DNA of 64,000 nucleotides from the NCBI GenBank assembly GCA_020746835.1, contig JAGPNK010000010.1, positions 1,178,001 to 1,242,000 of the forward strand, in the 5' to 3' direction. A program made the translations under genes and the position numbers. Positions 13,614 through 15,530 of this stretch are shown here, one piece after another (the first letter of the stretch is position 1; the number at the start of each line of letters is the position of its first letter). The notes below the pieces were generated by a model that did not search any database, had not been told where the DNA came from, and was given only the letters and a program-made list of their open reading frames with translations. The DNA is from Stachybotrys elegans. Lineage: Eukaryota > Ascomycota > Sordariomycetes > Hypocreales > Stachybotryaceae.

Positions 13614-13618
13614 AAAAA
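13614..13618 (-). terminator. Pol III T-run of tRNA-Met copy A
   Basis: Five consecutive T on the minus strand, seven bases beyond the discriminator base at 13625. This matches the position expected for RNA polymerase III termination. Confidence 0.6.
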
Positions 13619-13638
13619 GATATTTGTCCTGGGTGAGA

Positions 13639-13689
13639 CTGGAGGCTGTTAGTGTTTGCTCGATGACATGCTCAGAATAGGCTGCTTAC
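13639..13689 (-). other. Spliceosomal-type insert in T-loop of tRNA-Met copy A
   Basis: The insert is 51 nt, begins GTAAGC and ends CTCCAG, with the branch-like sequence CACTAAC 13 nt before the end. Excision rejoins TTCGAC to T and restores a seven-base T-loop and a five-pair T-stem. Copy B has no insert here, so the empty site can be seen directly. Confidence 0.65.
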
Positions 13690-13711
13690 GTCGAACTCAC
13701 GACCTTTGGAT

Positions 13712-13744
13712 GGCCCAGTCTGAAGACTAGATCATAATGAACAT
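13712..13744 (-). other. Standard tRNA intron (33 nt), copy A
   Basis: It lies between A37 and A38, the canonical position for nuclear tRNA introns. Together with the anticodon it forms the hairpin CATAATG-TT-CATTATG. It has the same length as the intron in copy B. Confidence 0.65.
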
Positions 13745-13749
13745 TATGA

Positions 13750-13798
13750 CTATTGGATGATTAGCATTGGAAAGGATTAGAGGAATGGGGCGACGAAC
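13750..13798 (-). other. Spliceosomal-type insert in anticodon loop, copy A
   Basis: The insert is 49 nt, begins GTTCGT and ends AATAG, with GCTAAT as a possible branch site 11 nt before the end. It interrupts the loop between C32 and T33. Its CCTCTAATCCTTTCC core resembles CCTCTAGCCTATTC of the copy B insert. Confidence 0.6.
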
Positions 13799-14190
13799 GA
13801 CCAACGCTCTGGGACCAACTGAGCTACCAAGACCTGGTTGGACGGCCCGAGCTTGAGATGGTATATGGAGTCGATGGAGTTGACGATGCGGGTTCAGTCT
13901 GCGCGCCAGAGGTTAGGGAGTGGTTGTTTTGGGGCTTGGAATTTGTTGGCAGCAAGGCGTCCACCATGGAAGGGCATTTGACTTGGCGAGGGAGCTACAA
14001 TATCAGCGGAAGGACCAAACACTTGGAACGTGTGAACTGCATCTATTGGTAGATGATTCAGTCCTACTTGCCTGCGGCTTTGGACAAGTCCACTGGGATT
14101 TGCAGGTCTGGAACACGTTTGCCTTGTTCATCGACAAAAGAGCATCGCCGCAGCCACAAGCATTTCTCAATCGAAATTTCTTGCCCATGT

Positions 14191-14983: not shown

Positions 14984-14989
14984 AAAAAA
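14984..14989 (-). terminator. Pol III T-run of tRNA-Met copy B
   Basis: Six T on the minus strand, four bases beyond the discriminator at 14993. This is a typical RNA polymerase III terminator. Confidence 0.7.
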
Positions 14990-15028
14990 GAATGTCCTGT
15001 GTGAGGCTCGAACTCACGACCTTTGGAT

Positions 15029-15061
15029 AGCCCAATCTGTTGATTGAATCATACTGAATCG
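15029..15061 (-). other. Standard tRNA intron (33 nt), copy B
   Basis: It is located after A37. With the anticodon it can form CATAC-GATTCA-GTATG, the same hairpin as in copy A, with a C-G pair where copy A has A-T. Confidence 0.7.
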
Positions 15062-15065
15062 TATG

Positions 15066-15117
15066 CTGATGATATGTTAGTCATGAATAGGCTAGAGGAT
15101 GTTTAAGATATACTCAC
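15066..15117 (-). other. Spliceosomal-type insert within anticodon loop, copy B
   Basis: The insert is 52 nt. The 5' end GTGAGT is a consensus donor, GACTAAC is a near-perfect fungal branch site, and it ends ATCAG. It splits the tRNA immediately 5' of the CAT anticodon. Confidence 0.7.
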
Positions 15118-15150
15118 AGACCAACGCTCTACCAACTGAGCCAACAAGAC

Positions 15151-15530
15151 CTTGTTGGAGGGCATCCAGTAAGAATAACATATATACTGAGGTAGGACAC
15201 AGTTGTAGGATGGTTTGGGACCTATCCACCACCTGGGCTGCGAAGATAGGACCCCTATCGCTAAGGGCTAAGCCTGTGCACTTTAGAGCTTATTCGGCCT
15301 CAGTGCTGGATTTTGAGCATTTCGGGTGCTTTTAGCTCTTGTCTAATTTTTATTCGTTGTTTCCTGTCCATCTTGACGATTTATAGTGTTGTCTATTAAA
15401 GGGTTTTGCAGTCTTGTTATTTGCTACACCCTCGCCCGGTCGCGCTCTCGTCCACGGATCCAGGCAGGTTGGCATGTTCAATTGGGCAGGAAGTCCTCTT
15501 GCCCTGCTAATCTTTATATTATGCACGCAC
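15151..15530. other. 5' flank of tRNA-Met copy B, nothing else seen
   Basis: The first 15 nt (CCAACAAG on the minus strand, upstream of the tRNA) resemble the 5' flank of copy A (CCAACCAG), which fits duplication. The rest shows no gene. Confidence 0.4.

Follow-up and report, generated by a model that had tools for sequence, protein, structure and literature searches.

The 64,000-nucleotide stretch of Stachybotrys elegans DNA analysed here (the window) carries on its minus strand two putative elongator tRNA-Met(CAU) genes, eMet1 and eMet2. Each appears to be split by an intron at the canonical 37/38 position and by further inserts resembling GT-AG introns (Table 1). Judged by its ITS (in L078), the source would be a sordariomycete, perhaps one of the Hypocreales.

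Table 1. Features of the two split tRNA-Met genes and the U6 snRNA match of the same genome. Positions are those of the window unless a contig is named.
Feature	Position	Strand	Basis
eMet1, putative elongator tRNA-Met(CAU) gene, 3 exons + 2 introns	14993..15150	-	RF00005 match; spliced body
eMet1 5' exon to U33, with A box	15118..15150	-	sequence
eMet1 putative GT-AG intron, 52 nt, U33/C34	15066..15117	-	GTGAGT, GACTAAC, CAG
eMet1 middle exon, anticodon CAT + A37	15062..15065	-	sequence
eMet1 canonical-position tRNA intron, 33 nt, 37/38	15029..15061	-	TATGA complementary to U33-A37
eMet1 3' exon from A38, with B box	14993..15028	-	sequence
T6 run, putative Pol III terminator of eMet1	14984..14989	-	sequence
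TATATAT about 36 nt upstream of eMet1	15180..15186	-	sequence only
eMet2, putative second elongator tRNA-Met(CAU) gene, 4 exons + 3 introns	13625..13833	-	BLAST, sequence, pairing
eMet2 putative GT-AG intron 1, 49 nt, C32/U33	13750..13798	-	GTTCGT, GCTAAT, TAG
eMet2 canonical-position tRNA intron, 33 nt, 37/38	13712..13744	-	22/33 identical to that of eMet1
eMet2 putative T-loop GT-AG intron, 51 nt, 59/60	13639..13689	-	GTAAGC, CACTAAC, CAG
T5 run, putative Pol III terminator of eMet2	13614..13618	-	sequence
TATAC about 32 nt upstream of eMet2	13861..13865	-	sequence only
U6 snRNA match (L077)	C1:4175725-4175821	-	Rfam U6

The Rfam tRNA model RF00005 matches eMet1 with 49.7 bits (E 1.2e-07; gathering threshold 29), leaving 87 positions unaligned, all of them in the anticodon loop. 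An earlier note, made from the letters of the window, had placed a 52-nt and a 33-nt segment in this gene, and the coordinates it gave are correct. The T6 run that it named is also present, and all cloverleaf arms pair once the inserts are removed. The branch A of the GT-AG intron lies 11 nt from its 3' end, and the G at -3 of the 37/38 intron could pair with C32. Removal of both inserts leaves a body of 73 nt whose loop reads CUCAUAA and in which U31 and U39 are mismatched; we take both features to be marks of elongator tRNA-Met, here and in eMet2. Over its whole length the body is 55/74 identical to L038, an ordinary elongator tRNA-Met gene of this genome, and 56/73 identical to tRNA-Ile(UAU). 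As the body is about equally near to both, the Met identity of eMet1 rests on the CAU loop together with U31/U39.

A genome BLAST search with 251 bases round eMet1 returned eMet1 itself and one place 1.3 kb away, eMet2, which lies within the same window and was absent from the earlier note. Its acceptor stem forms 7/7 pairs (one G-T) and its T stem 5/5. Intron 1 has a weak 5' splice site (GTTCGT) and a branch A 11 nt from the 3' end; in the T-loop intron, which takes the place of the last bases of the B box, the branch A is 10 nt from the end. The 37/38 intron, like that of eMet1, has a UAUGA complementary to U33-A37. Without the inserts, CUCAUA precedes the 37/38 intron of eMet2, the T-loop has 7 nt and its stem 5 bp, and both the CUCAUAA loop and U31/U39 are shared with eMet1. 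The D-loop of eMet2 (window 13810-13820, minus strand, AGTTGGTCCCA) has 11 nt against 8 nt in eMet1, with three extra C.

Exons of eMet1 and eMet2 are identical in 68/76 columns (z 16.6) and their 37/38 introns in 22/33 (z 5.3). No alignment between the copies was found for the core of GT-AG intron 1 (z -0.2) or for the 3' flank (z 0.6), and similarity is weak for the whole of intron 1 with its signals included (z 2.8) and for the 5' flank (z 2.6). At pair 7:66 both sides have changed between the copies, eMet1 having T-A and eMet2 having G-C. Exons that are kept, an intron core and a 3' flank that have diverged and a two-sided change at 7:66 make up the pattern expected from selection on the spliced product. 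This pattern argues against the idea that we are looking at decayed pseudogenes, tRNA copies with insertions that are never removed while intact genes supply the cell. The placement of the inserts argues against it too, as they lie in loops, read as GT-AG introns and, once removed, let all arms pair. A single long intron at 37/38 was considered and rejected, because eMet1 would then have a GUG anticodon and eMet2 a loop with G33, making the copies inconsistent. The two-intron reading is favoured since both copies then give CUCAUA before the 37/38 intron.

Using a 72-nt initiator tRNA-Met as query, we found 4 loci in the genome, three of them unbroken at 100% identity and one in two pieces (L013:1731-1853; pieces 1-32 and 33-72, both 100%, with 51 nt between). 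The insert, GTAAGTTCTCC...CTCTAACTATCAATAG, is at 33/34, the same site as in eMet1, and its 51 nt carry the signals GTAAGT...CTCTAAC...AATAG; its borders are unambiguous and cannot slide. Two of the three intact copies belong to the same cluster as the split gene (L013, L014). That the initiator gene differs from its three intact copies by nothing more than a precise 51-nt GTAAGT...TAG insert supports a spliceosomal reading, and, judging from the letters, we consider it the cleanest case among these genes. It would offer a natural presence/absence pair for intron gain under extreme structural constraint. Its exons, 100% identical to the intact copies, are hard to reconcile with decay. What does favour decay is that an ordinary elongator gene and three intact initiator genes exist. 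The earlier note had named many ordinary elongator tRNA-Met genes elsewhere, together with no conservation of the locus in related species, as signs of a pseudogene; one ordinary gene, L038 on contig C1, was found, having a 32-nt intron at 37/38 as its only intron, with a G three bases before the intron's end that can pair with C32. With L038 and the intact initiator genes present, a need for the split Met genes cannot be argued, and the fungus might do without eMet1 and eMet2, given L038. On balance we consider decay improbable.

A further split gene (L081, contig C34) was found as half a tRNA, with the other half downstream. Its 5' exon of 33 nt is separated from TCTA by a GT...AG insert of 157 nt (33/34), TCTA from an exon of 22 nt by a 9-nt insert (37/38), and that exon from the 3' end by a 50-nt insert, GTAACT...GCTAAC...TAG (59/60); a T6 run comes next. 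Without the inserts, the acceptor stem pairs 7/7 (one G-T), the anticodon stem 5/5 and the T stem 5/5. As in eMet2, the T-loop intron takes the place of the last bases of the B box. The 33/34 insert is weak, running GTGGGT...AAG with CTGAC as its only branch motif, and this 157-nt intron 1 with its AAG 3' site is the least certain of all the introns. An end at CACAAG would give this gene the anticodon UCU (Arg). The spliced body is 52/74 identical to LysTTT, 51/73 to ArgACG and 50/73 to ArgTCG, and L081 is probably a tRNA-Arg(UCU) gene, as read from its letters. A pattern combining a D arm with a 5' splice site gave 5 matches (eMet1, L081, an ordinary tRNA-Phe and two others) against 10 in the reversed control, so the case for L081 rests on its pairing instead. 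When spliced L081 was used as query, the one piece found was its own 5' exon; its own 3' pieces were also missed, which limits the sensitivity of the search. Likewise, BLAST with eMet1 missed L038 and the L038 query missed the others. Since such searches miss copies as divergent as L038 is from eMet1, they are weak evidence that no other copy exists, and the failure to find an ordinary Arg paralogue counts against decay within that limited sensitivity. If this gene were the sole one of its kind, AGA reading would depend on the spliceosome and TSEN in turn, and translation would then be directly tied to splicing capacity. In the reverse complement of L081, the leader has an inverted repeat, AACGGAG...CTCCGTT, that ends one base before the Arg tRNA.

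All six inserts at 32/33, 33/34 or 59/60 have GT...AG ends, with borders chosen by reading. The fuller signal GT..CTAAY..AG, in which the branch A lies 10-11 nt before the end, is present in 4/4 of the inserts of eMet1, eMet2 (both) and the initiator gene; the Arg 59/60 insert has GCTAAC and the Arg 33/34 insert only CTGAC. For an estimate of chance, pieces of fixed length from shuffled local sequence were scored for GT..CTAAY (6-20 nt from the end)..AG, and 17/237,060 (49 nt), 14/236,940 (51 nt) and 19/236,880 (52 nt) carried it, a rate of 6-8e-05 per piece. Introns of the host were sought by in-frame rejoining in protein genes of the window over 44-85 nt, which gave 21 candidates from 226 groups; these were filtered on the letters of the 5' and 3' splice sites, not on the branch site, and some are probably false. 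Among them, 15/21 have 46-55 nt, and 10/21 contain CTRAY, its branch A being 7-18 nt away from the end. The tRNA inserts of 49, 50, 51, 51 and 52 nt fit this host size, the exception being the 157 nt of Arg 33/34. TTTT was found in 0/6 of the GT-AG inserts, which says little, since 19/21 of the window introns likewise lack it. Inserts at the canonical 37/38 site occur in eMet1, eMet2, L038 and, with 9 nt, in Arg; the GT-AG inserts are not at 37/38. After removal of all inserts, the cloverleaf arms pair in eMet1, eMet2, the initiator and Arg. Minimum-energy folding (with an eMet2 precursor 8 nt short at its 3' end) gave a cloverleaf for the initiator only, and not for spliced eMet1, eMet2 or Arg; it is uninformative, as the ordinary L038 fails equally.

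Several introns in one tRNA gene are known elsewhere. Algal tRNA genes have up to three, including three in elongator tRNA-Met, by a splicing process described as not understood, and Cyanidioschyzon merolae has other non-canonical tRNA introns (both in a passage of PMC4090602), while a T-loop intron at 59/60 is named for Thermofilum pendens in a passage of PMC3978253. These cases lend some support to the proposal that every insert is an ectopic tRNA intron and that a broadly specific endonuclease cuts them all, as described for some algae and Crenarchaeota. The genes described here share with them several introns per tRNA gene, placed outside 37/38; the ectopic introns differ, however, in being bulge-helix-bulge (BHB) type or very short, going by passages of PMC4090602, PMC3978253 and PMC8450103, whereas the present inserts carry a 5' splice site, a branch site and a 3' splice site. 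The earlier note had suggested a search for BHB folding at 33/34; extended to the six GT-AG sites, it revealed no consistent bulge-helix-bulge. In this simple custom test, which is not a BHB model, nine registers were tried at each site, and the full 4-bp central helix was found at 1/6 (Arg 33/34), a candidate whose inner helix scored 0/2. Removal of all inserts by an endonuclease is thus very unlikely in our opinion.

An intron of the same type was found in the U6 snRNA gene of this genome, the one gene that the Rfam U6 search gave among 47 scored of 2485 candidates. It reads AAACGATA, a 71-nt intron GTAAGT...GCTAACTATCCTACAG, and then CAGAGAAG; the intron sits between AUA and CAGAGA with the signals GTAAGT...GCTAAC...CAG, and the Rfam match runs into intron sequence before CAGAGA. 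Introns of U6 are a known trait in fungi, cited as such in a passage of PMC5832005. In this fungus, then, an RNA of the spliceosome itself would need a GT-AG intron removed. The U6 intron also holds a B-box-like GTTCGAATGC, and its letters suggest that a Pol III promoter element may lie inside it.

The U6 intron bears on another possibility, namely that the tRNA-like pieces belong to Pol II non-coding transcripts in which the GT-AG introns are spliced, no tRNA being made. Two points favour such an origin: spliceosomal introns are normally features of Pol II transcripts, and the T-loop intron shortens the B box in eMet2 and L081. Nevertheless, U6 is a Pol III transcript and has the same type of intron here, and the A boxes, the T5-T6 runs just downstream and the pairing arms have all been kept in the tRNA genes. 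We regard a Pol II origin as extremely unlikely.

We propose, with a probability of about 0.85, that both eMet1 and eMet2 function as elongator tRNA-Met genes, that their GT-AG inserts are spliceosomal introns and that TSEN removes only the intron at 37/38. The two-intron reading of eMet1 in the earlier note is supported by CUCAUA in both copies, by the presence/absence pair of the initiator and by the U6 intron. That note had left the choice between the spliceosome and the endonuclease; the spliceosome is much the likelier of the two, considering the lack of a consistent BHB and the GT-AG intron of U6. The same kind of GT-AG intron would be present in the initiator tRNA-Met gene (33/34) and in the probable tRNA-Arg(UCU) gene (33/34 and 59/60).

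TSEN and a ligase complete intron-bearing tRNAs. According to our model, Pol III would use the A and B boxes of each gene and stop at its T run, and the spliceosome would excise the GT-AG introns in the nucleus, rebuilding the anticodon loop and the T-loop. The 37/38 intron would then be in its usual context, to be cut by TSEN and the ends joined by tRNA ligase. In eMet1, U33 can pair with this 37/38 intron next to C34 only after the 33/34 intron has gone, which suggests that the spliceosome acts first and TSEN second. Pol III transcription, spliceosome use, the order of steps and the function of the product are what we infer, not what we observed. It is tempting to go further and see the spliceosome as a regular machine of tRNA maturation in this lineage, with GT-AG introns recurring at 33/34 and 59/60 in several tRNA genes, although we hold this broader view only tentatively and would not bet on it. 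If the proposal is true, tRNAs would add a gene class to the substrates of the spliceosome, and two splicing systems with no relation to each other would act on a single Pol III transcript.

A nuclear tRNA gene of a eukaryote is taken to contain a single intron, which lies at 37/38 and is cut by TSEN. The 33-, 33- and 9-nt inserts at 37/38 agree with such canonical introns; the inserts of 49-52, 50 and 157 nt differ, having spliceosomal signals and lying at 32/33, 33/34 and 59/60. U6 snRNA introns of fungi are reportedly treated by Tani and Ohshima (1989) and by Canzler et al. (2016), and mRNA-type introns in fungal nuclear rDNA by Rogers et al. (1993). The rDNA introns resemble ours in being of mRNA type and in interrupting a non-coding gene that Pol II does not transcribe, but their host is an rRNA and ours would be a tRNA. 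With fungal U6 introns, that of this genome included, the tRNA introns share a GT-AG intron in the gene of a small structured RNA; the difference is that the hosts are tRNAs, of which eMet1, eMet2 and Arg also have a 37/38 insert. As of 2017, according to a passage of PMC5832005, frequent interruption by an intron was known for no small structured RNAs other than U3 and U6, and fungal U3 paralogues may differ in intron presence. The likeness to U3 snoRNA introns thus extends to a spliceosomal type, a structured RNA and paralogues that differ in presence, whereas a tRNA would be a further class beyond U3 and U6. A passage of the tRNAscan-SE 2.0 paper (PMC8450103) limits eukaryotic tRNA genes to one intron. 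Within the open PMC literature, a scope outside which most subscription papers fall, we came across no tRNA gene reported to contain a spliceosomal intron, in agreement with the earlier note, whose author knew of no fungal tRNA with a GT-AG intron at 33/34. Both the type of intron and the type of host gene are known, and it is their combination that appears to be new so far as we found.

Such genes fall into a blind spot of annotation, being called His(GTG) or Tyr(GTA), or missed, when a 5' splice site is read as an anticodon. As had been predicted for eMet1, ARAGORN calls nothing there at default settings and a tRNA-His(gtg) with introns up to 200 allowed, because the GTG of the 5' splice site is taken as the anticodon; the split initiator gene is named tRNA-Tyr(gta). 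The Rfam tRNA model misses both eMet2, not detected even at E up to 1, and L081, which is below the cut-off. A genome search with RF00005, in which 63 of 992 candidates were scored, missed eMet1, and the tRNA set is therefore incomplete. The ARAGORN call is Glu(ctc) for L038, the ordinary elongator tRNA-Met, and Ser(gct) for L037. L037 is, by our own reading of its letters, a likely tRNA-Ile(UAU), with Rfam below its cut-off there. These misnamed genes indicate that fungal tRNAs with introns are called wrongly even when they lack GT-AG inserts.

A finder for tRNAs with and without GT-AG inserts gave 40 distinct matches, 4 of them with GT-AG inserts, in 328,279 bases, a biased sample in that several loci had been chosen because of these searches; on 7,369,824 shuffled strand-bases it gave 0 matches. 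It was built after eMet2 and L081 had been seen, so that finding them again is no independent discovery, and some tRNAs escape it, L037, L052 and L057 among them. A pattern for T-loop inserts matched 22 times against 34 in the control, and only eMet2 and L094 had a T stem of 5, an acceptor of 7 and a branch motif. L094 was rejected as a split tRNA, having two G-T pairs in its T stem and the look of coding sequence. A GT-AG plus B-box pattern gave 2 matches against 4 in the reversed control, both judged on reading to be introns of protein genes. Of the scans of viral contigs, one gave 0 matches and another gave 1 (L076), a chance match without any tRNA.

Two minor observations concern other RNA genes of this genome. 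All seven tRNA-Asp genes examined, L016-L022 (contigs C4, C45, C59 and C60), share a 10-base 3' flank, ATCCGCCATC, and this common flank suggests that the dispersed unit was larger than the tRNA. In the SSU rRNA of L078 (contig C59), at about 2444-2829 of L078 on the minus strand, the Rfam 18S alignment skips 386 positions after GACTCAAC, a gap that is perhaps a group I intron.
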